Virus record (IMG/VR): IMGVR_UViG_3300017771_000169
Location: 1 to 20,080 of that record
Source: a virus
DNA: 20,080 bases
Direction: 5' to 3' (one strand)
Position numbers and translations under genes: made by a program. Shown one piece after another: positions 8,673 to 19,167 of the stretch. Within the stretch, counting starts at the first letter, position 1. Each line of letters begins with the position of its first letter. The notes below the pieces were generated by a model, which worked only from the letters and a program-made list of their open reading frames with translations, was not told the DNA's origin and searched no databases.

Positions 8673-8684
8673 ATGTGGTATAAT
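8656..8684 (+). promoter_or_regulatory. Early-type promoter for the modification region
   Basis: TGTACA at 8656-8661, a 17-bp spacer and TATAAT at 8679-8684 preceded by TGTGG, within the 3' end of the AEP-like gene. Transcription should begin near 8691, only about 3 nt before ATG 8694, so the transcript would be nearly leaderless. Confidence 0.78.
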
Positions 8685-8693
8685 AGGTGTATT

Positions 8694-9137
8694 ATGAAAG
8701 AATCAGTTAAAGTCCTACAAGAGTGTGCCGAACTTCAAGTGAAGAAAGGCAATGACTATCAAAACCCGCATTCGCGGATCAAGCAAGTTGATTATTACCC
8801 ACAAGGTGTTGCAACGTTGCTTGACATTGTACATGCTAAGATGCTTCGTATGCGATCAGTTATCGAAGCTATGCAATCAGATCCAAACTATAATCCTAAT
8901 TTCGAATCACTCGAAGATTCAGCAAAAGATATGATTAACTATTGTTCATTTATCGTTGAGTATTCTCGTGGTAAGATGCAAGGTCAAGATCCTAATAATG
9001 ATTTTTTAAATCGACCTAAAACTAAAGTACAATATACTGAACCTACAAAAGATGAAGTATATCCAGCAAGAGAAGATGTACCTGCTGAATTATGGGGTAA
9101 AAATATTAAGGAAGCTCTAGCAAATGATGAATGTTAA
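8694..9137 (+). CDS. Nmad1/DUF1599-like protein
   Basis: A 147-residue helical protein resembling the DUF1599 family, renamed nucleotide modification associated domain 1. Supporting patterns are KKGNDYQNPHSRIKQ, LLDIVHAKMLRM and FESLEDSAKDMINYCSF, that is, a K-x-x-DY motif, a conserved lysine helix and a D-x-x-NY helix. The fold is thought to be related to MazG-like pyrophosphohydrolases, and members co-occur with phage DNA modification genes. An upstream in-frame ATG at 8673 would add MWYNRCI, but that stretch is the -10 element itself, so 8694 is preferred. It overlaps the hydroxymethylase start by 14 nt. Confidence 0.6.
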   Translation: MKESVKVLQECAELQVKKGNDYQNPHSRIKQVDYYPQGVATLLDIVHAKMLRMRSVIEAMQSDPNYNPNFESLEDSAKDMINYCSFIVEYSRGKMQGQDPNNDFLNRPKTKVQYTEPTKDEVYPAREDVPAELWGKNIKEALANDEC

Positions 9138-9780
9138 AGACGTTAGAAATCATTTCATTGATGAATTAAAAAATGAAAGATTTACTATTGATAAAACAGG
9201 CCAAAAAACTATTGAAATGATTGGTGCTTCATTCATTGCAGATGATGAATCTATCTTCGGTCAACCAAATAAGGAATATATTAATGCAGAAATCGATTGG
9301 TATTTGTCTGGATCCACAAACATCAACGATATTTATGGAGACGATCGAGACCCTCCAAAAGCATGGCAGATGTCTGCAAATAAGTATGGAGAAATCAACT
9401 CAAACTATGGATACCTCGTATTTGACGATAAGTGGTATCGCCAATATGATAATGTCGTTAACGAATTAGCTGCAAATAAAGATTCGCGTAGAGCTTGTAT
9501 GGTCTATAATCGTCCATCAATTTGGGCTGAATTCGATGCAAATGGCAAGAATGATTTTATTTGTACAAATGCAGTTACATATTATGTTCGAAATGATATG
9601 CTGCATTCTGTTGTGCAGATGAGATCTAATGATGTAGTGTATGGCTATAAAAATGATTATGCATGGCAAAGCTATATGTTGCACTGTGTTGCAAATGACT
9701 TAGAAGTTGATCAAGGCACTATTACTTGGCAAGTTCAAAACCTACACGTTTATGAAAGGCATTTTGATCTTGTTAAATAA
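9124..9780 (+). CDS. 42: Deoxypyrimidine hydroxymethylase, gp42 type (probably dCMP)
   Basis: A thymidylate-synthase-fold enzyme that uses methylene-tetrahydrofolate to add hydroxymethyl to C5 of a deoxypyrimidine monophosphate. The product (218 residues; T4 gp42 has 246) tracks T4 gp42 closely: TIDKTGQKTIEMIGASF, GEINSNYG, DSRRACMVYNRPS, the nucleophile C147 in CTNAV, MRSNDVVYGYKNDYAW and NLHVYERHF. D178 falls at the position of T4 D179, which replaces the Asn of thymidylate synthase and selects cytosine, so dCMP is the predicted substrate. It is truncated after the RHF block relative to T4. The start overlaps the Nmad1-like gene, and dCMP deaminase overlaps its end. Confidence 0.9.
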   Translation: MMNVKDVRNHFIDELKNERFTIDKTGQKTIEMIGASFIADDESIFGQPNKEYINAEIDWYLSGSTNINDIYGDDRDPPKAWQMSANKYGEINSNYGYLVFDDKWYRQYDNVVNELAANKDSRRACMVYNRPSIWAEFDANGKNDFICTNAVTYYVRNDMLHSVVQMRSNDVVYGYKNDYAWQSYMLHCVANDLEVDQGTITWQVQNLHVYERHFDLVK

Positions 9781-10231
9781 ATGGGATACTCGATACCTTG
9801 AGCTTGCAGAGCGCGTAGCGTCGTGGTCGAAAGATCCATCGCGTCAGATTGGTGCTGTTGCAGTAGGATCTAAAGGACAAGTTCTTGCTCAAGGTTTTAA
9901 TGGTTTTCCCCGAGGAATTGTTGATACCGCAGATCGTTATAACAATCGCGAGATCAAATACAAATATGTTGTTCATGCAGAAATGAACGTCATATATAAT
10001 GCTACATATAACGGAGTTTCTTTAGACGGTTCTACGTTATATGTTTCTGGTTTGCCAGTTTGCTCTGACTGTGCAAAAGGTATAATTCAAGTCGGCATTT
10101 CAAGAGTTGTAATGAAAGAAGAAAATATCCCACAACATTGGGCAAAATCGTGGGCAATGACAGCTGGAATGTTTGACGAAGCAAATATTAATTGGGAGTT
10201 TATAAATGTCACAAGTTCAAGAACGTCATGA
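9752..10231 (+). CDS. dCMP deaminase
   Basis: Deaminates dCMP to dUMP, feeding thymidylate synthesis. The zinc site is clear: HAEMN (His ligand and catalytic Glu) and PVCSDC with two cysteine ligands, the proline immediately before the first Cys being replaced by Val. WDTRYLELAERVASWSKDPSRQIGAV and GFNGFPRG are the usual N-terminal landmarks. The start is uncertain: ATG 9752 is used here, but TTG 9764 or 9770 would match family length better and lie downstream of AAAGG (9755-9759). All overlap the end of the hydroxymethylase gene. Deaminases of T-even phages are reported to accept hydroxymethyl-dCMP, so the enzyme could also make hm-dUMP. It ends overlapping the next small gene by 26 nt. Confidence 0.92.
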   Translation: MKGILILLNKWDTRYLELAERVASWSKDPSRQIGAVAVGSKGQVLAQGFNGFPRGIVDTADRYNNREIKYKYVVHAEMNVIYNATYNGVSLDGSTLYVSGLPVCSDCAKGIIQVGISRVVMKEENIPQHWAKSWAMTAGMFDEANINWEFINVTSSRTS

Positions 10232-10415
10232 AGATTACATGAAGCGGCGTCTACGTGAAGAAAATATTGGTGTTAATACAGAATACACTAATATGAGACT
10301 TACAAAAGAAATTGAAGAACTTAAAGATAGAATTAAAACACTTGAAACTGATATGGCATACACAGCATATGCTACCAGCCCAGAAGAACAACGGATATAT
10401 GATTTAAAAAAATGA
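10206..10415 (+). CDS. Small coiled-coil protein
   Basis: A 69-residue highly charged protein without recognised family. Residues about 30-52 (RLTKEIEELKDRIKTLETDM) form a short predicted coiled coil with leucine/isoleucine heptad positions. The N-terminus is rich in Arg and Glu. GGGAG at about 10194-10198 precedes ATG 10206, and the end forms an ATGA overlap with the pyrophosphorylase-like gene. It may be an oligomerisation or adaptor partner of the neighbouring modification enzymes (inference from the coupling only). Confidence 0.7.
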   Translation: MSQVQERHEDYMKRRLREENIGVNTEYTNMRLTKEIEELKDRIKTLETDMAYTAYATSPEEQRIYDLKK

Positions 10416-11587
10416 GTTTAGAAACTACTGAATATTATGATGAATTTATTCGTTATTTTGATATGGCACAAGAACAACAAGTAAAGTGCAATGTTTCAGA
10501 AGAAGCTCCATATGGGATGATTCCCCATATGGAGTCTGGAATGAACGATGACTTAATGCATTGGATTGAATTATACGATGTTGTTGAGCGTAAATATGCT
10601 GGCTTCTCTCAAATTATGAATGATTGCTGGTCTGGTTGGACTGAAGATCATCCTTATTGGAAAAAGATGGAAGCTGGTTTACATTGTGATCAACGTAAAG
10701 TAGTAGCAGAAAATTGGACTGGTAAACATAAAGATTTTGATTTGCCAGAATGGCTATATCTTTTTATCTTACATCGTGTATGTGGTTCTGCTATTAATTA
10801 TGCAACTAAACCATCTGGTTATCATAATACATTATTATTTACACTTCATAAAGCTAAAACTATTGAAGACATGGTTTGGCATATGAAGAGGCATAAGACA
10901 CCATTTTATACTTCTGTTGGATACCAGTTTCCTAAATTTCCTAAACCACCACAAGGTTCAGATTATAAAAGAAGCGGTGATTACTACCTAGCAGAATTTG
11001 CTCCTCGTCTTGCAAGAGAGATGGCAGAGTGGCTACAAACTTCAAATGAAAGAAAAGATCTTCGAGAAATTGGAGAATATATGGGTAAATGGAATGAAAG
11101 AAACGGGCTTAATCGTTACACTTTTCAATATGCTGCCGTGGTTGCTGATATTGCAGATTGGTATCCTCAGTTTGTTAATAAAGAATCGCATTTTTATTAT
11201 GGTACTAACGCTGTTGAGTGCATTTCTTATCTTGCTAAACCAACCATAAAAATGAAAAAAGAAGTATTTCTCGACAAAGTTATGGATAAAATTTATGAAG
11301 ACACAAAATCATTTCCATATAATGCAGAAGATGTATGCTGTGACTTCATTCGTTGGGTAGAAAACTATATGAGACCAGGTGCACATTATTCACACGTAGA
11401 TATGGATACAGTATTTTCATCGAGCAAAATCAAAGATCATCCATTTGGTCGACAGAAGGCTATGCTCGAACTTGGTTTAGTTGATACATTTAATAATCGT
11501 AAACACCATCCATCAGATGATACAGTCTTAAAAGAAGTTAGTATGTCAATAGAGGAATACAAAGCTAAATGCGCCACGCTACATTAG
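10412..11587 (+). CDS. aGPT-pyrophosphorylase-like protein (DNA hypermodification)
   Basis: This 391-residue, mostly helical protein resembles the alpha-glutamyl/putrescinyl-thymine pyrophosphorylase families, which descend from HhH-type DNA glycosylases and act on pyrophosphorylated hydroxymethyl-pyrimidines in DNA. Supporting patterns are LYLFILHRVCGSAINYA (about 112-128), FRYTF-like and AADIADWYPQF-like helices, and a C-terminal DFIRWVENYMRPG...GRQKAMLELGL block. I know the family by pattern only, so the exact subgroup is uncertain. If correct, the enzyme would displace pyrophosphate from the activated base so that an amine or other group can be attached. It starts in an ATGA overlap with the coiled-coil gene, overlaps the next gene by 19 nt, and contains a perfect hairpin near its start. 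Confidence 0.55.
   Translation: MSLETTEYYDEFIRYFDMAQEQQVKCNVSEEAPYGMIPHMESGMNDDLMHWIELYDVVERKYAGFSQIMNDCWSGWTEDHPYWKKMEAGLHCDQRKVVAENWTGKHKDFDLPEWLYLFILHRVCGSAINYATKPSGYHNTLLFTLHKAKTIEDMVWHMKRHKTPFYTSVGYQFPKFPKPPQGSDYKRSGDYYLAEFAPRLAREMAEWLQTSNERKDLREIGEYMGKWNERNGLNRYTFQYAAVVADIADWYPQFVNKESHFYYGTNAVECISYLAKPTIKMKKEVFLDKVMDKIYEDTKSFPYNAEDVCCDFIRWVENYMRPGAHYSHVDMDTVFSSSKIKDHPFGRQKAMLELGLVDTFNNRKHHPSDDTVLKEVSMSIEEYKAKCATLH
10505..10533 (+). repeat. Perfect inverted repeat, 11-bp stem with 7-nt loop
   Basis: CTCCATATGGG (10505-10515) and CCCATATGGAG (10523-10533) are exact reverse complements around ATGATTC. It lies about 95 nt inside the pyrophosphorylase-like gene. There is no following T-run, so it is not an intrinsic terminator. 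It may be an mRNA hairpin that affects translation or processing, or a protein site (each arm contains the palindrome CCATATGG). Confidence 0.7.
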
Positions 11588-12555
11588 AAGCATTTATCGA
11601 ACAAGATAATAATTCTATTACATATAAAAATACAGTAGAACCTATATTAAAAAAAGGTAAAGTCACTAATCATCTATTAGAAAAGTGGCCGCTCGAAGAA
11701 AGAATACAAAAGTTCTTCGAGTTTTGTCGTGCGTATGATGTAAGAGAAGAACCTTTACTTAAATCTAATCCGCAACAATTTTCTCATCGATTGCATTGGG
11801 ATGAGATGCCATATGTAGAAGAAATGAAGAATGAAAAAGATGTAGAAAAACTTTTACATCATACTATTGTTTGGTCATTTAGTAACGAACATTGGTTGAC
11901 ATTTAGAGCATTAAGAGATCACGGTATTGAGGCCATGAAAAATAGATTTGTTACTGAGAGGCATGCAAGATCAGACTTATTTCAAATATATTATCCTAAA
12001 GGCACTAAAGTAAAAGAATGGCTATGTGAAACACCACAACGAATTGCCAAAGATTGTTATCCGCTTTTGCAGTCAAATCGCCCATTAAAAATGATGGAAC
12101 TAGCATCTAAACTTGAAAAACACACGAAAGAAAAATATGGATTTAGAAATGTTATGTACCCTTATAAGAACCTGTCTCGTCACATCGCCATGGCAAGACC
12201 AGATCTTGTCGATCCAGAATCGTGGGTTACACCAGGAACATTATCGTTCTATGGACTATGGCAAATATTTGGTGGAAAAAACCTCTTTGGTAAAACAAAA
12301 TTCAACTTAGATGAAAATGGTAACTATGAGCCAGTAAATGATCAAGCAAAATGGCTTGTAGAACAATTCAATACTTTAGCTGCGCATAAAGATAATCCTA
12401 TGCAACGGCAATATAATATCAACATCGAAGATAAAGCTTGTATGTGGTGTAAACATTTATTTATTAGACATGGTGTTAAATCTACTACAAAGAAAATTCC
12501 ATATGAATGGATTTATCCGCGTAATTTTTCTCTAAAAAAGAGTTTACATTCCTAA
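11569..12555 (+). CDS. Unknown protein in the modification cluster
   Basis: A 328-residue protein, largely helical, that I cannot assign. Visible features are aromatic-rich helices (VWSFSNEHWLTFRAL), a central segment with YPYKNLSRHIAMARPDLVDPESW, PGTLSFYGLWQIFGG at about 226-240, and CMWC near residue 285, which could bind metal or be structural. It overlaps the pyrophosphorylase-like gene by 19 nt, with AGAGGAA upstream as ribosome site, and is followed by the promoter for the PLP gene. The coupling suggests a partner in base modification, for example the enzyme that attaches an amino acid or amine to the activated base (inference). The start at ATG 11569 is well placed. Confidence 0.7.
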   Translation: MRHATLEAFIEQDNNSITYKNTVEPILKKGKVTNHLLEKWPLEERIQKFFEFCRAYDVREEPLLKSNPQQFSHRLHWDEMPYVEEMKNEKDVEKLLHHTIVWSFSNEHWLTFRALRDHGIEAMKNRFVTERHARSDLFQIYYPKGTKVKEWLCETPQRIAKDCYPLLQSNRPLKMMELASKLEKHTKEKYGFRNVMYPYKNLSRHIAMARPDLVDPESWVTPGTLSFYGLWQIFGGKNLFGKTKFNLDENGNYEPVNDQAKWLVEQFNTLAAHKDNPMQRQYNINIEDKACMWCKHLFIRHGVKSTTKKIPYEWIYPRNFSLKKSLHS

Positions 12556-12571
12556 TAAAATTTGGTATAAT
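12543..12571 (+). promoter_or_regulatory. Early-type promoter for the PLP-enzyme gene
   Basis: TTTACA at 12543-12548, a 17-bp spacer and TATAAT at 12566-12571 preceded by TTTGG. A start about 7 nt after the -10 would fall at 12578, the A of the start codon, so the transcript is predicted to be leaderless. No ribosome binding site is visible upstream of that ATG. Confidence 0.78.
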
Positions 12572-12577
12572 AGACCT

Positions 12578-13522
12578 ATGTCACACGATAAACATGTAAT
12601 TGATAATGTAAATAAAGACGTAGAAGTCTTAAGTCTTGATGGAATCCAAACTCGTCAAGAAGCAAAAGAATATTATCTAAAATTAGCTGATGGTTGGGAA
12701 GATCCTAATCCACAGCCAGTTATAAAGGAATATGATGGTGTACGAGTTGTTCGCGACGACCTCATTACAGGTAGTAAAGTACGAGGAGGAGATTTACTTA
12801 TTTCTCGTATTAATCAATCTCGTCTCGTTTATGTTCAGCCTCGCACTGGCTTGGCAGGAGTCTCGCTCTTGGATGTGGCAAAGAGACACAATAAAAGCGT
12901 TAGGCTATTCATGCCCTCATCGAAAAGAATTAGTCATCATCAAGCTTGTTGTATCGAGCGCGGTGCTGAGTATGATTTCTATCGTGTGGCTGCTATGCCT
13001 AACCTCAATAGGATAGCAAATAAATGGGCACAAGACAACGACGATGCGTTTTTTATCCCGTTAGGTTTAAAGCACGAACTCGTTACGGCAGGTATCGTAA
13101 AGGTAGCATCAGCAATTCCAGCACCAGAAGAAGTGTGGACCGTAGTATCTACAGGCGTACTACATCGCGCCTTGCAGATCGCTTGGCCAAAAGCTGAGTT
13201 TCATGCTGTTGCAGTTGCTCGTAATATGAAAGAAGGCGAAGTTGGTCATAGTAATATTATCTCTGCACCTGAGCCTTTTACTAAAGAAATTAAAGAAGGA
13301 CTGCCACCCTTCCCAAGTATAAACACATATGATGGAAAAGCATGGCGATATATCCCTAAAAATTCTGGTAGGGACATCTTATTTTGGAATGTTGGTGCTG
13401 AACCAGTACTAAACGATGATACTATATACGACAGAGTTGATTCATATAGAAAGTGGACTAAAGATGAAAAAAATACTACTCACGGGTCTGGGACCAATCT
13501 CGAACAAAATACATTCGCATAA
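12578..13522 (+). CDS. Fold-type II PLP-dependent enzyme
   Basis: The 314-residue protein looks like a tryptophan-synthase-beta/ACC-deaminase-fold PLP enzyme. After a 55-residue lead, VVRDDLITGSKVRGGDLL places K67 where the PLP-binding lysine sits in such enzymes. The helical repeats that follow (TGLAGVSLLDVAKRHNKSVRLFMP, then CCIERGAEYDFY) are the usual moving subdomain, and VVSTGVLHRALQIAWP with a later ILFWNVGAEP fits the phosphate-binding and closing region. Known phage pathways for 5-(2-aminoethoxy)methyl-uridine and 5-(2-aminoethyl)-uridine use PLP enzymes to process an amino acid attached to the base, so this is a likely step here; the reaction cannot be read from sequence. It has its own promoter and overlaps the next gene by 59 nt. 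Confidence 0.7.
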   Translation: MSHDKHVIDNVNKDVEVLSLDGIQTRQEAKEYYLKLADGWEDPNPQPVIKEYDGVRVVRDDLITGSKVRGGDLLISRINQSRLVYVQPRTGLAGVSLLDVAKRHNKSVRLFMPSSKRISHHQACCIERGAEYDFYRVAAMPNLNRIANKWAQDNDDAFFIPLGLKHELVTAGIVKVASAIPAPEEVWTVVSTGVLHRALQIAWPKAEFHAVAVARNMKEGEVGHSNIISAPEPFTKEIKEGLPPFPSINTYDGKAWRYIPKNSGRDILFWNVGAEPVLNDDTIYDRVDSYRKWTKDEKNTTHGSGTNLEQNTFA

Positions 13523-14525
13523 GGCAGCGCAAGCTATTATCTATGCTGATCAGCTCAAACAAGCTGGTATGGATGTGACAATCAATTTAGTCAGCAATAA
13601 AATTACTGATTATAGTCCATTCGAAGAAATTTATTTTTATCATGGATCAGATTGGAGTGGAAATCTAAATTTGTTTGGTGGTATTGAAGCATATGCTAAT
13701 ACTGATTTTGTTTCTGCCTTGTCACATTTCAATGGCAAAATTAAATCAATTATAGTTGACTTCCCCGATTATGCTTCTATGTTTCTCGATCGCTTAGCTA
13801 AAAAAGATATGACATGGAATACTGTACATTGGGAAAATCTACGTAAGTTACAAATAGAAGCTGAAACTGTTGATCCTAATATGATTAAGAGATATCGTAA
13901 GATTGCCTTTGGAGATAGTCATGCTATCTGCATGTACCGGCCCGGGTGGGAGAATGTATCAGTACCTTTCTCAACTTTACATGGTTCTATCAATAAAGGG
14001 TTTGAGACATTTGTACCAGAAAATGGCGAACCAATGAGAGAAGATAGATATGATGAAATCGAAACATATTTCGGTAATATTGATATTCGTCATCATCTTT
14101 GCAGATTTGATAATCCTATTGAAGAAGCGCATAAACTAGCTGATAGATATGGTAAAGAAATAGAACGTGTTCGCAAACTTTTTAAATCAAACGTCACTGC
14201 ATGGGAACCTCTACCAATTGAAGATGAAGCTCGTAAAATTCCAAAAACTGGATGGTATAAAGGTACACCATTTTACGGCAGCTGGCAACAACGAAATGAT
14301 GTGCGTAATGCTTTTACCGAAAGACTAAAATCTCATACACAAGTTTATGACTGGGTAGAATCACTATATAATCCTATAGGTCAACTAGGTTATGAGGCTA
14401 TGGAAAAGCCACAATCAGTGCATTTATCTCGAGCATCATATCCTCATTGGCAAGGAAAAAATTGGACTGCAGATACAGAATATCCAATTGAAGCTGCAGC
14501 TTCGCTTGAAGCATTCTTTGCATAA
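13464..14525 (+). CDS. SGNH-hydrolase-like protein of the modification cluster
   Basis: A 353-residue protein. Its N-terminus (MKKILLTGLGPI) looks like a Rossmann-type strand-loop, and the middle carries IAFGDSHA (a GDS block I-like motif with candidate serine nucleophile) and later YFGNIDIRHHLCR (a G-x-D/N-like block III), together suggesting an SGNH/GDSL-type fold. A C-terminal SRASYPHW might supply the Asp/His block, but this is not certain. Such proteins are esterases or acyltransferases; next to a PLP enzyme, transfer or removal of an acyl group on a modified base is one possibility. ATG 13464 is chosen over an upstream in-frame ATG at 13416 because MKKILLTG is a natural start. The 59-nt overlap with the PLP gene implies coupled expression. 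Confidence 0.5.
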   Translation: MKKILLTGLGPISNKIHSHKAAQAIIYADQLKQAGMDVTINLVSNKITDYSPFEEIYFYHGSDWSGNLNLFGGIEAYANTDFVSALSHFNGKIKSIIVDFPDYASMFLDRLAKKDMTWNTVHWENLRKLQIEAETVDPNMIKRYRKIAFGDSHAICMYRPGWENVSVPFSTLHGSINKGFETFVPENGEPMREDRYDEIETYFGNIDIRHHLCRFDNPIEEAHKLADRYGKEIERVRKLFKSNVTAWEPLPIEDEARKIPKTGWYKGTPFYGSWQQRNDVRNAFTERLKSHTQVYDWVESLYNPIGQLGYEAMEKPQSVHLSRASYPHWQGKNWTADTEYPIEAAASLEAFFA

Positions 14526-15795: not shown

Positions 15796-16090
15796 AGAAA
15801 ACGAAACTTATCAACTTATTCCTGGTCCAGATTTTGCACAGAATTGGCATATTAGAATATTAGAAGGTAATTTCGTAGAAACTGTTATTGAAGTTGGAAC
15901 AATTTCTTATAATGAAACTAATGATGATGTATTGACCTTTAATTTTGAAATTGTAGAAACTCCAGATAATTCTTTAACAATAGAAAATATTGAATTACAA
16001 ATTACAGTTGGAGAAATTTTAGAGGAAATTATTACTGCAGCAATTGAGAATGATGATGGTAGTATTCAAATGAAAGAGAAAGAAACTTAA
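15770..16090 (+). CDS. Small acidic protein after UvsX
   Basis: A 106-residue protein without recognised family. It is rich in beta-like segments (FVETVIEVGTISY, LTFNFEIVETP, IENIELQITVG), followed by an acidic helix (EILEEIITAAIENDDG). ATG 15770 is preferred over the in-frame ATG 15752 because AAGGAAG lies about 6 nt ahead. It starts inside uvsX and ends in a TAATG overlap with the kinase gene. A role with UvsX or in modification is possible but only by position. Confidence 0.7.
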   Translation: MSLIYRKHKENETYQLIPGPDFAQNWHIRILEGNFVETVIEVGTISYNETNDDVLTFNFEIVETPDNSLTIENIELQITVGEILEEIITAAIENDDGSIQMKEKET

Positions 16091-16512
16091 TGAAGATTTT
16101 AATTTGTGGACTACCAGGTAGTGGCAAGACTACTCTAGCAGAACCATTGGCAGAATTACTTGGTGCAGTATGGATCAATGCCGATCAAGTAAGAAAACGG
16201 TATGATGACTGGGACTTTACACCTGAAGGTCGTATTCGTCAAGCACAACGTATGCGGCATCTATCAGATGGTGTTGTTATGGCAGGTAAAGTTGCTGTAA
16301 CAGATTTTGTAGCACCTACAGAAAAAGCTCGTGCAGAATTTGATGCTGATTATGTCGTGTGGATGGATACGATTGAAGAAGGACGTTTTGAGGATACAAA
16401 CAAAATGTTTGAAAAGCCAACAGATGTTAATTATCATGTTGCAAATTGGTTTGAAGATACTCATGCTCAATTGCTGCCAATTATTAAAAATTATATGGAA
16501 AGGAATAAGTAA
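16090..16512 (+). CDS. Small P-loop kinase, hydroxymethyl-pyrimidine DNA kinase-like
   Basis: A 140-residue P-loop kinase of the APS-kinase/nucleoside-kinase group. Walker A is GLPGSGKTT at 7-15, INADQVRKRYDDW at about 29-41 corresponds to the substrate-binding DxxR region, and WMDTI with RFEDTNKMF lies toward the C-terminus. Its size and this DTN-x-x-F pattern resemble phage kinases that phosphorylate 5-hydroxymethyl-uracil in DNA, the first activation step for hypermodified thymines. A kinase for another small substrate (adenylylsulfate, a nucleoside, RNA ends) is the alternative. ATG 16090 overlaps the preceding stop. It is separated from the modification island by the uvsX segment. Confidence 0.7.
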   Translation: MKILICGLPGSGKTTLAEPLAELLGAVWINADQVRKRYDDWDFTPEGRIRQAQRMRHLSDGVVMAGKVAVTDFVAPTEKARAEFDADYVVWMDTIEEGRFEDTNKMFEKPTDVNYHVANWFEDTHAQLLPIIKNYMERNK

Positions 16513-16733
16513 TGGAACTTTTACTTTTACTTGCAGCTGGAGCTGCAGCTCATCAATATCTAAAAGAACCTGATATTGCAATCCCACCGTCAGAGCATAA
16601 AGTGATGGTACAAAATGAACAAGTATGGATTCCTGATGATAACAGTCTAGCTATGATTGATTGGACAAAGGCAGGTAATTTTACTCAGACCTCTCATCAA
16701 CATAATGTAGTATGGGTGATGATCAGTGAGTAA
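16512..16733 (+). CDS. Small protein with hydrophobic N-terminus
   Basis: A 73-residue protein. Residues 1-13 (MELLLLLAAGAAA) are hydrophobic but carry no basic residue before them, so this is a weak signal peptide or anchor candidate. The remainder is polar, with PPSEHKVMVQNEQVWIPDD and a His/Gln-rich segment (TSHQHNVVW). ATG 16512 overlaps the kinase stop (TAATG), and the next gene starts within its last codons at a GTG. No family is recognised. Confidence 0.6.
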   Translation: MELLLLLAAGAAAHQYLKEPDIAIPPSEHKVMVQNEQVWIPDDNSLAMIDWTKAGNFTQTSHQHNVVWVMISE

Positions 16734-17145
16734 ATTTGACCCATTAAATCCTACTGTACAAATGCTTGGTAGGTGGCAACCTTGGCATGATGGCCATTCA
16801 GAATTATTTAAACGATGCCATGCTATGACAGGCCAAGTTGCTATTATGATTCGTCAAGTACCAGAGAAACGTGAAGCAAATTCTCGAGTTCCTGGTCAAG
16901 ATGATAATCCATTTAATATTGAAACAGTCAAAGAAAATATTATTACTGGACTTGCGCAAGAAGGGTTTACAATTGATGAAGACTATGTTATAATGGTAGT
17001 TCCAAATTTAGTTGACATTAGTTATGGTCGTGGTGTTGGCTACACATTTACAGAGCACGATCTTGGTAAAGCGATTCACGACATCTCTGCTACCAAGATT
17101 CGAGAACAAATGAGAGACGAAGGTAAACTTGCAGACAAATCTTGA
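16726..17145 (+). CDS. Nucleotidyltransferase (NMN adenylyltransferase-like)
   Basis: A 139-residue cytidylyltransferase-fold protein. HDGH at 21-24, after the strand LGRWQPW, matches the (H/T)xGH phosphate-binding motif, and ISATKIREQM near the C-terminus matches the ISxTxxR motif. Together these define the nucleotidylyltransferase superfamily. NMN adenylyltransferase (NAD synthesis) is the most likely member, since several large T4-like phages carry NAD salvage genes, but transfer of another nucleotide is possible. The start is GTG 16726, inside the previous gene. A promoter-like element lies within it, and gp41 begins 17 nt before its stop. Confidence 0.8.
   Translation: MSKFDPLNPTVQMLGRWQPWHDGHSELFKRCHAMTGQVAIMIRQVPEKREANSRVPGQDDNPFNIETVKENIITGLAQEGFTIDEDYVIMVVPNLVDISYGRGVGYTFTEHDLGKAIHDISATKIREQMRDEGKLADKS
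16966..16994 (+). promoter_or_regulatory. Intragenic early-type promoter ahead of gp41 helicase
   Basis: TTTACA at 16966-16971, a 17-bp spacer and TATAAT at 16989-16994 preceded by ATGT (extended -10 TG-T-TATAAT). It lies inside the nucleotidyltransferase gene, about 130 nt before the gp41 start. The upstream GG of the other copies is missing, hence lower confidence. Confidence 0.5.
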
Positions 17146-18505
17146 ACAGACAATCCTACGTAATCTTTTAACAGACGAGCAATATATGCGTAAAGTATTG
17201 CCGTTTATTAAACCAGATTATTTTGAAGGTGTCTATCGTATATTATTTAAAGAGGCTGGTAAGTTTGTTGGAAAATACAACAAGCTGCCAACTGCTGAAT
17301 CTTTTAAAATTGAATTAGATCAAGCTGATCGATTGACTGGTGAACAATACACCATGGCAGTTGATATTTTGCCTAATTTATTTTCACAAGAAAAGATCGA
17401 TGATCAATGGTTAATTGATACCACAGAAAAATGGTGTCAAGATCGTGCAATCTATAATGCAGTAATGGAATCAATTACAATCATAGATGGTAAACACGAA
17501 TCATTGACAAAAGGTGCTTTACCAGATTTGCTAAGTAAAGCCCTTGGTGTAGCATTTGATACTAACGTTGGTCATGACTATGTAGAGAATGCAGAACAAC
17601 GATTCGAATTTTACCATAAAGAAGAAGATAGGATTCCATTTGATCTCGAATATTTTAACAAGATTACAAAAGGTGGTGTACCGAGTAAAACACTTAACAT
17701 TGCCCTTGCAGGTACTGGCGTTGGCAAGTCTCTATTCATGTGTCATGTTGCTAGTGGTGCTCTTGTAGAAGGTCGTAATGTTTTATACATTACAATGGAA
17801 ATGGCTGAAGAACGTATCGCTGAACGTATTGATGCTAATCTATTGAATACACCTATTGATCAATTGCCGAATTTATCGAAAGATATGTTTACAACAAAAG
17901 TTCAAGATCTTGCTCGTAAGACCACAGGCAAATTAATTGTAAAAGAATATCCTACTGGTTCTGCACACTCTGGTCATTTTCGTGCATTATTAAATGAACT
18001 TAAACTCAAAAAAGAATTTGTGCCTGATATTATTTTTATTGATTATCTTAATATCTGTGCATCATCTCGTATGAAGGCAATGGGAGGATCGATTAATTCA
18101 TACACTTACATTAAAGCAATTGCTGAAGAGTTACGTGGTCTTGCGGTCGAGTTCGACGTACCGATCTTCTCTGCAACGCAAACGACTCGTAGTGGTTATG
18201 GTAACTCGGATGTTGGGCTTGAAGATACGTCCGAGTCTTTTGGATTACCCGCTACAGCAGATCTAATGTTTGCTCTTATCTCAACCGAAGAGTTAGAGAA
18301 GCAAGGTCAAATGATGGTTAAACAATTAAAGAATCGTTATAATGATCCTACAGCATATAAAAGATTTGTCATTGGTGTAGATAGATCAAAGATGAGGTTA
18401 TTTGATGTTGATGAGAATGAACAAACATTAACAGATGATACACCAGTTTTTGATAAAAGTGAAACACACGAAAATATGTCAAAGTTTAAGGACTTTAAAC
18501 TATAA
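17129..18505 (+). CDS. 41: Replicative DNA helicase gp41 (DnaB-type)
   Basis: The 5'-3' hexameric helicase that unwinds the fork and works with primase. The 458-residue product (T4: 475) aligns along its length with T4 gp41: NVGHDYVENAEQRF, IPFDLEYFNKITKGG, Walker A AGTGVGKS at 194-201, YITMEMAEERIAERID, Walker B IIFIDY at about 301-306, YTYIKAIAEELRGLAVE and the SFGLPATADLMFALI block. The start is TTG 17129, with GAAGGT just upstream, inside the nucleotidyltransferase gene. Its stop overlaps the ATG of the next gene (TAATG). A 7-bp inverted repeat at 18204-18236 lies within it. Confidence 0.97.
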   Translation: MQTNLEQTILRNLLTDEQYMRKVLPFIKPDYFEGVYRILFKEAGKFVGKYNKLPTAESFKIELDQADRLTGEQYTMAVDILPNLFSQEKIDDQWLIDTTEKWCQDRAIYNAVMESITIIDGKHESLTKGALPDLLSKALGVAFDTNVGHDYVENAEQRFEFYHKEEDRIPFDLEYFNKITKGGVPSKTLNIALAGTGVGKSLFMCHVASGALVEGRNVLYITMEMAEERIAERIDANLLNTPIDQLPNLSKDMFTTKVQDLARKTTGKLIVKEYPTGSAHSGHFRALLNELKLKKEFVPDIIFIDYLNICASSRMKAMGGSINSYTYIKAIAEELRGLAVEFDVPIFSATQTTRSGYGNSDVGLEDTSESFGLPATADLMFALISTEELEKQGQMMVKQLKNRYNDPTAYKRFVIGVDRSKMRLFDVDENEQTLTDDTPVFDKSETHENMSKFKDFKL

Positions 18506-19167
18506 TGAAAGCTATAGCTTTTAGTGGTGGTATGGATTCGACCATTATGGCATATGAATTATTCACCACTACTCAGGATAATTACTATATATTTACTATT
18601 GAAGATGAGCATTGGCCAATGAATTGGGCTTTTAACAATGTCAATTTTATTATGAATAAATGGTTTAGTAATTTTAAAGATAGAATTATTGATCATAAAA
18701 TAGTATTGAATGCTCGAGGTTATGGTAACAAATATTCACTTTATGCAGAATACTTGCAATGGGCAAAGGCAATATTAAAATATGATTTAACTCATTTATA
18801 TTCGGGCACTACAAAATTATATCCAGGATTAGAAGAAACAGAAGAATATAAAGGTTATGCTGAAGGTGCGCGAGTAGAATTCAAAGAGGCATTTGGAAAA
18901 TGTTATTTTCATCAACCATATTTTAATTTTTATAGGCATCAAGTAGCAAATAAATATATTGAATATAATGTTGTTGATATGATATTAGATACTCAGACAT
19001 GTAAAAGTATTGCACTCGATGGCAAATTGTGCAATAAGTCAAATTGTGAAGATTGTTCTGATAGGCACGAAGGATTAAAACGAGCATTCACTAATACAAA
19101 ATACGAATATATAATAGAGAGAGATAGAAATCGTAAATTGAAAGATGTAGTATGGACAAAATGTTAG
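18505..19167 (+). CDS. QueC-like PP-loop enzyme (7-cyano-7-deazaguanine synthase family)
   Basis: An N-type ATP pyrophosphatase of 220 residues. The PP-loop SGGMDST is at 7-13, and a C-terminal zinc site has cysteines at 166, 176, 181 and 184 followed by RHEGLKRAF, like the C-x-x-C...R-x-x-G-F end of QueC. QueC converts 7-carboxy-7-deazaguanine to preQ0 using ATP and ammonia; in phages, preQ0 can be inserted into DNA or used for tRNA. The middle is divergent from bacterial QueC, so another amidation or adenylation reaction is possible. No QueD, QueE, FolE or DNA-insertion enzyme is in this window. It starts in a TAATG overlap with gp41 and overlaps the methyltransferase by 16 nt. Confidence 0.7.
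   Translation: MKAIAFSGGMDSTIMAYELFTTTQDNYYIFTIEDEHWPMNWAFNNVNFIMNKWFSNFKDRIIDHKIVLNARGYGNKYSLYAEYLQWAKAILKYDLTHLYSGTTKLYPGLEETEEYKGYAEGARVEFKEAFGKCYFHQPYFNFYRHQVANKYIEYNVVDMILDTQTCKSIALDGKLCNKSNCEDCSDRHEGLKRAFTNTKYEYIIERDRNRKLKDVVWTKC

Follow-up and report, generated by a model that had tools for sequence, protein, structure and literature searches.

The window, by which we mean the whole 20,080-base stretch of the virus record that was analysed, is a fragment of an uncultured T4-like phage with genes for a clamp loader, gp43, UvsX and gp41, all of these names except UvsX being taken from the translations. It carries the overlapping genes for a PLP enzyme and an SGNH-fold protein that are the subject of this work (Table 1). 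The original prediction held that the two genes share 59 nt and are likely made together. Both ORFs are real and overlap by exactly that length. Such an overlap, mostly of 5-59 nt, occurs in 73 of 96 distinct homologous pairs, so translational coupling is the rule; the length of 59 nt is kept within the window's clade and is specific to it.

Table 1. Features of the window discussed in the text.
Feature	Position	Strand	Basis or remarks
dCMP hydroxymethylase (T4 gp42-like), predicted maker of 5-hydroxymethyl-dCMP	9124-9780	+	profile, identity, Asp site
dCMP deaminase, usual neighbour	9785-10231	+	Pfam dCMP_cyt_deam_1, E 1.5e-18; phrog_174, E 8.6e-42
Third core protein, helical, like ADDT and the helical domain of 5-hmdU DNA kinase; proposed base-flipping transferase	10412-11587	+	AF2 model
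Likely paralogue of 10412-11587, in some clades only	11569-12555	+	hhalign
Sigma-70-like promoter TTTACA-17-TGGTATAAT (TATAAT with extended TG)	12543-12571	+	consensus scan and comparison
PLP-enzyme ORF, fold type II, M6 gp52-like	12578-13522	+	314 aa; phrog_7093, PALP in relatives, M6 gp52 profile match
Codon of K67	12776-12778	+	
Overlap of the PLP and SGNH frames	13464-13522	+	exactly 59 nt
SGNH-protein ORF: SGNH fold with extra N-terminal domain (about residues 1-136); S152 (GDSH), G174, N205, H320	13464-14525	+	353 aa; open frame extends back to 13416; AF2 model, conservation

The pair had also been credited with a promoter of its own. In a consensus scan the site just upstream of the PLP gene matched at 11 of 12 positions, the top score in the scanned region, tied with one other. 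Taken alone the scan was at chance level (39 sites found, 38.6 expected), and we counted it as evidence only together with a comparison of relatives. Among the window's relatives (19 distinct pairs) both hexamers are kept while the spacer diverges, as would be expected of selection on a promoter, and this comparison supports it. Other clades have no such promoter, and their PLP gene closely follows or overlaps its upstream neighbour. The prediction thus stands for the presence of a promoter but not for its being particular to the pair, as it is one of six near-identical ones in the window. Exact TGGTATAAT boxes lie on the plus strand at 316, 4759, 7312, 8676, 12563 and 14551, each preceded by T(T/G)TACA at a distance of about 17 nt from TATAAT and closely followed by a gene. 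The boxes at 8676, 12563 and 14551 end only 0-9 nt ahead of an ATG; with the -10 box less than 10 nt from the likely start codon in these three of the six, their transcripts may be nearly leaderless. Translation of ORFs 8673 and 14548 probably begins further downstream.

The product of the upstream gene had been called a PLP enzyme with K67 as the cofactor lysine, and comparison with relatives bears this out. The protein matches phrog_7093 (E 2.8e-39), and Pfam PALP is matched by 17 of 24 relatives (best E 1.8e-10), the window protein alone giving no Pfam match. Its catalytic domain aligns with gp52 of Pseudomonas phage M6 over 217 columns (hhalign probability 97, E 5e-11), and the two have in common a C-terminal signature APFP..YDxKAW..FWNxG (PPFPSINTYDGKAWRYI...FWNVG in the window, APFPCNPFYDLKAWKWL...FWNIG in M6). 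We take M6 gp52 to carry out the decarboxylation in the M6 pathway. K67, in the N-terminal part and the predicted Schiff-base lysine, is invariant in all 110 distinct PLP proteins. Most relatives have the S191-T192-G193 motif (GSGTLTR in Erythrobacter phage ZS04), assigned to the phosphate-binding loop by motif only. Position 92 is Leu in 106 of the 110 proteins and His or Phe in the other four. In a by-eye alignment, the Asn that contacts PLP O3' in O-acetylserine sulfhydrylase (OASS) is replaced by Leu in the window enzyme; this Asn is usual rather than universal and does not decide membership in fold type II.

The SGNH-like fold suggested for the second protein is present in its predicted structure. 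An AlphaFold2 model built from 30 homologues (pLDDT 86.9, pTM 0.85) aligns with 2hsj over 168 residues, within residues 97-329 (Z 12.6, rmsd 3.0), and also matches sialate O-acetylesterase (Z 12.2-12.4), PAF acetylhydrolase (Z 11.5-11.7) and many other SGNH hydrolases, as well as the OSK domain of Oskar; the window protein alone has no Pfam match. The residues of the SGNH blocks are nearly invariant among distinct proteins: S152 in 135/135, G174 in 134/135, N205 in 132/135 and H320 in 134/134. A Ser-Asp-His triad built on the GDSH serine had been anticipated, and of this the serine and histidine are conserved but the aspartate of the DxxH motif, three residues before the catalytic His, is missing, position 317 being Q, K, S, R or H. 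This aspartate is a common member of the triad and lies outside the four residues that give the SGNH family its name. E314 is conserved and could stand in for it. We therefore regard the protein as a divergent member of the SGNH fold in which the Ser-His pair is intact and the third member unusual. Together with the Asn-to-Leu change in the PLP enzyme, the missing aspartate suggests that both reactions may be unusual. Two further resemblances were set aside. The model resembles T4 beta-glucosyltransferase in two entries with Foldseek probabilities of 0.95-0.99, but at a TM of about 0.3 the likeness is too weak. A profile match between the N-terminal part and 10412-11587 was an artefact of over-extended ORFs in two contigs (L073 and L078), where the 3' end of the PLP gene is translated in a different frame.

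The base on which these proteins would act is suggested by the gene at 9124-9780. Its profile matches T4 dCMP hydroxymethylase (1b49) with an E of 1.6e-98, as against about 1e-17 for thymidylate synthases, and the protein is up to 51% identical to gp42 proteins of T4-like phages. At the base-specifying site, the position of N177 in E. coli TS, 62 of 63 relatives have Asp, and an Asp at TS position 177 marks modified-cytosine contigs (PMC8670742). The closeness to T4 gp42 and this Asp point to 5-hydroxymethylcytosine as the likely starting base. Among the homologues of dCMP hydroxymethylases are 5-hydroxy-dCMP synthases of the RB69 type (PMC13390438), and 5-hydroxy-dCMP may be the product instead.

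Two further proteins are encoded between the deaminase and the pair. For 10412-11587, the best matches of the AF2 model (pLDDT 88) are uncultured-phage proteins, the first of them (A0A6J5L8T5, 64% identical) being named amino acid:DNA transferase. Lower in the BFVD ranking, the model matches the ADDT-named A0A6J5LCY1 and the phiW-14 HMUDK_hel protein C9DG43 with a Foldseek probability of 1.00, but with E-values of only 2.4e-3 (TM 0.41-0.47) and 1.1e-2, respectively. Its top PDB matches are 8-oxoguanine (OGG) glycosylases, with a Z of 7.6 that is low for a helical protein. The protein has no Pfam match, hhalign linked it to neither of two small alignments, one of ADDT and one of HMUDK_hel proteins, and a search with the amino acid:DNA transferase family PF18724 at E 1 yielded nothing from the window or from 11 related contigs. 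Given modest structural matches (TM about 0.4), to named family members from other sequence groups, and none by sequence, we describe the protein as one that works like ADDT or HMUDK_hel rather than as a member of either family. The next gene, 11569-12555, whose product alone has no Pfam match, probably encodes a paralogue of it (hhalign probability 69-79, E 4e-5 to 2e-5, unrelated pairs scoring at most 2%). Across the gene set, PDB searches with single sequences turned up no convincing relative.

The PLP and SGNH genes form a larger unit together with 10412-11587, 11569-12555 and the hydroxymethylase gene 9124-9780. Two viral scans yielded at least 579 contigs with SGNH relatives and at least 543 with PLP relatives, of which the best 80 of each were read. 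Among the matches listed, the commonest order is hydroxymethylase, 10412, 11569, PLP, SGNH, and 87 of 88 distinct PLP genes lie beside an SGNH gene. Conversely, a PLP gene lies within 4.5 kb of 49 of the 55 distinct SGNH genes that have enough upstream sequence, and two of the other six have one at a greater distance within their locus. All genes counted here belong to relatives of the window proteins and do not represent independent events. A relative of 10412-11587 and a dCMP hydroxymethylase usually accompany the pair, a protein of the hydroxymethylase family being present in 14 of 16 SGNH-bearing records, although some of the weaker matches may be thymidylate synthases. Distant phages tell more: within 21 kb, two contigs (L056 and L059) have nothing in common with the 32 window genes except the trio of 10412, PLP and SGNH genes, and in L057, a T7-like podovirus that encodes an RNA polymerase of its own, polymerase A and a T7-type primase, the trio lies between the primase and ThyX. 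The co-occurrence of the pair with DNA-modification genes elsewhere, by which the original prediction was to be judged, is thus very strong.

Hypermodified phage DNA is a known kind of system, and it is the combination of base and enzymes that is new here. One of the closest known systems is the thymidine hypermodification cluster of phage M6 (gp51-gp58), which shares with the window the homologous fold-type-II PLP protein gp52, a nearby gene of the thymidylate synthase family and helical DNA proteins. There, gp52 is flanked by genes for an amino acid:DNA transferase and a radical SAM enzyme, and a 5-hmdU DNA kinase with its helical domain is encoded a little further along. M6 DNA contains 5-(2-aminoethyl)deoxyuridine, and in the 5-hydroxymethyluracil (hmU) pathway a kinase acts first and an amine transferase follows (PMC6449724). 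Unlike the window, the M6 cluster acts on uracil, has a PF18748 kinase, radical SAM and ADDT proteins, and lacks an SGNH relative. Phages with the 5-hydroxymethylcytosine (5-hmC) carbamoyltransferase found by MetaGPA are like the window in having a dCMP hydroxymethylase with Asp177, a dCMP deaminase and a further group on 5-hmC, with a pyrophosphohydrolase in the deaminase/hydroxymethylase cluster, but have a carbamoyltransferase in place of the helical, PLP and SGNH proteins (PMC8670742); the main text of that paper makes no mention of PALP, pyridoxal or SGNH. T4-type glycosylation likewise starts from hmC made by a gp42-type hydroxymethylase in a T4-like phage; the groups added are sugars (PMC13390438), and no glycosyltransferase was recognised in the window. 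The pathways described in the literature that we compared do not contain the combination of hydroxymethylase, helical, PLP and SGNH proteins. The remark that the pair was not familiar from characterised pathways must accordingly be narrowed: the PLP enzyme is related to M6 gp52, from a known cluster, and only the combination is unfamiliar.

Other settings of the two families show which parts of the set vary. The SGNH family is also found in the Aeromonas Biquartavirus 44RR (ORF233) and phage 31 (ORF233c), at 29-30% identity and in a genome with a dCMP hydroxymethylase. These differ from the window in having the SGNH protein fused to an HMUDK_hel-like domain, a symporter gene adjacent and no PLP neighbour seen, and Aeromonas phage UP87 is without a relative of 10412-11587. 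In 44RR and UP87 the fused domain is homologous (hhalign 99.6, E 1e-23) to a protein of contig L052 that, at 37.8 bits, clears the HMUDK_hel cut-off of 25; the gene for this protein overlaps the L052 SGNH gene. The sodium:solute symporter gene adjoining the fusion gene in UP87 (L001 3259-7264) and 44RR (L258 5423-9403), where it is sodium/glucose-cotransporter-like, perhaps imports a modification precursor. Three contigs (L052 1501-5352, L249 1593-5358 and L253 5061-9101) have, behind a dCMP hydroxymethylase and a deaminase, genes for myo-inositol-1-phosphate synthase (read from sequence similarity in L253) and a HAD-like protein, then HMUDK_hel-like and SGNH genes, which suggests an inositol-type cytosine decoration. 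In L253 these are followed by a gene with a match to C-5 cytosine methylases, in L249 by a similar ORF. In phiAS4, ORF25-27 (L259 3775-7047) encode in a row a UDP-galactopyranose mutase, a 358-aa protein also present in other phages and the SGNH protein, so that galactofuranosyl-hmC is possible; ORF26 was considered as an HMUDK_hel protein and matched none. The company of a mutase in phiAS4 and a symporter in 44RR indicates that the SGNH step need not involve an amino acid. The PLP domain, for its part, occurs at 35-36% identity in Erythrobacter phages ZS04 and R6L, where, unlike in the window, it lies inside a ParB/N6-N4 methyltransferase protein. In ZS04 (L002 2326-4764) this gene comes a few genes after a PAPS-reductase-like gene, and the protein is another DNA-modification setting of the PLP family. 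In one further contig (L252), binned as Rhodobacteraceae and probably phage, an aspartyl/asparaginyl beta-hydroxylase-like gene (2344-2862) lies between the deaminase and SGNH genes.

Taken together, these data make us confident that the pair belongs to an hmC modification pathway, and it is very probable that the gene set puts a small group, perhaps amino-acid-like, on the phage's own modified cytosines and trims it. We can propose an order and kind of steps for such a hypermodification cassette, which we consider reasonably probable as a whole, with the details of the second and fourth steps less sure. On strong grounds, 9124-9780 would make 5-hydroxymethyl-dCMP, which would then be built into DNA. 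The fold and neighbours of 10412-11587, which falls in the glycosylase-like ADDT/HMUDK_hel fold group, suggest that it would flip out the base and attach a small group, probably of amino-acid type, at the hydroxymethyl carbon or oxygen. By homology to M6 gp52, the PLP enzyme would bind the attached unit through its amino group as a Schiff base and trim it, most likely by decarboxylation or elimination; that the adduct is of amino-acid type and is trimmed by this enzyme has, in our estimate, about an even chance of being right. Least certain is the fourth step, an acyl-transfer or ester reaction that the SGNH protein would carry out on this base with its Ser-His centre. It would serve either to activate the hydroxymethyl group, as the DNA kinase does in the thymidine pathway, or to cap or deprotect the attached unit. 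The 59-nt overlap would couple translation for the third and fourth steps, and the final product should shield the phage genome from host nucleases. The earlier proposal that the pair removes or transfers part of an amino acid or acyl group on a base fits the company of the genes; the chemistry itself we infer.

The role of the SGNH protein can be read in more than one way. SGNH relatives are absent from the known hmU phages M6, ViI and phiW-14, whereas the window and 11 related contigs, which may be fragments, yielded no 5-hmdU DNA kinase of family PF18748; this suggests that the SGNH protein may take the kinase's place next to a helical base-flipping partner. Extended to the whole family, SGNH and helical base-flipping proteins would replace phosphorylation and yield an ester- or acyl-linked group on 5-hmC, the core being kept and the supply genes swapped. 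We hold this extension only tentatively; if it is true, the swapping of supply genes (PLP enzyme, inositol, galactofuranose, solute import) would give amino-acid-, inositol- or sugar-type cytosines. A somewhat better prospect, still short of probable, is that within the same hmC pathway the SGNH protein has no part in attachment and is a late capping O-acyltransferase or esterase acting on a hydroxyl of the attached sugar, polyol or amino acid. This would suit the sugar O-acetylesterases and PAF acetylhydrolase among the nearest solved folds, and the variety of its supply neighbours: UDP-galactopyranose mutase in phiAS4, a cotransporter-like gene in 44RR, myo-inositol-1-phosphate synthase and the HAD-like gene in L052, L249 and L253, PLP in the window. 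However, the fusion or overlap with HMUDK_hel-like proteins suggests that the protein acts at the base-flipping step, and no acyl-donor gene is constant. The Oskar OSK domain has been reported as a dead nucleic-acid-binding scaffold, and its presence among the structural matches, with the loss of the DxxH aspartate, might suggest that the SGNH domain likewise merely binds nucleic acid; we find this very improbable because S152, H320, G174 and N205 are near-invariant over 135 proteins and a dead enzyme would not need them.

Two alternatives to an hmC pathway were considered. The likeness of the PLP enzyme and the helical protein to hmU pathway parts would allow a 5-hydroxymethyluracil pathway as in M6 and ViI, with 9124-9780 acting as a dUMP hydroxymethylase or thymidylate synthase. 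This is very improbable, since the profile of 9124-9780 is far nearer T4 gp42 than thymidylate synthases and has, in 62 of 63 relatives, the Asp that marks modified-cytosine contigs (PMC8670742). Hardly credible is an amino-acid dehydratase or cysteine-synthase-like enzyme that with an esterase serves host metabolism and lies by DNA genes accidentally: metabolic genes are common in phages and the PHROG label is threonine dehydratase, but linkage to hmC genes is near-perfect across unrelated phages, and both M6 gp52 and the ParB-methyltransferase fusion tie the PLP family to DNA modification.

An hmC pathway of the kind we favour would widen the known range of cytosine modification. In the literature compared, the cytosine decorations described for T4-like phages are sugars (PMC13390438), carbamoyl is the one further group reported on 5-hmC (PMC8670742), and amine or amino-acid-type decoration is described for thymine. 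The gene set predicts a non-sugar hmC decoration in hundreds of uncultured phages and names candidate enzymes for it. For the SGNH proteins of the culturable Aeromonas phages 44RR, 31 and phiAS4, which have long been called hypothetical, it points to a possible function.

A search for co-occurrence with kinases of the window's type had been proposed as well. The kinase meant is probably 16090-16512, which is not a constant partner. This P-loop kinase and the nucleotidylyltransferase at 16726-17145 match two halves of one PHROG (phrog_10255) and are present only in the window's closer relatives. The PP-loop protein at 18505-19167, which has weak similarity to QueC, also varies among relatives.
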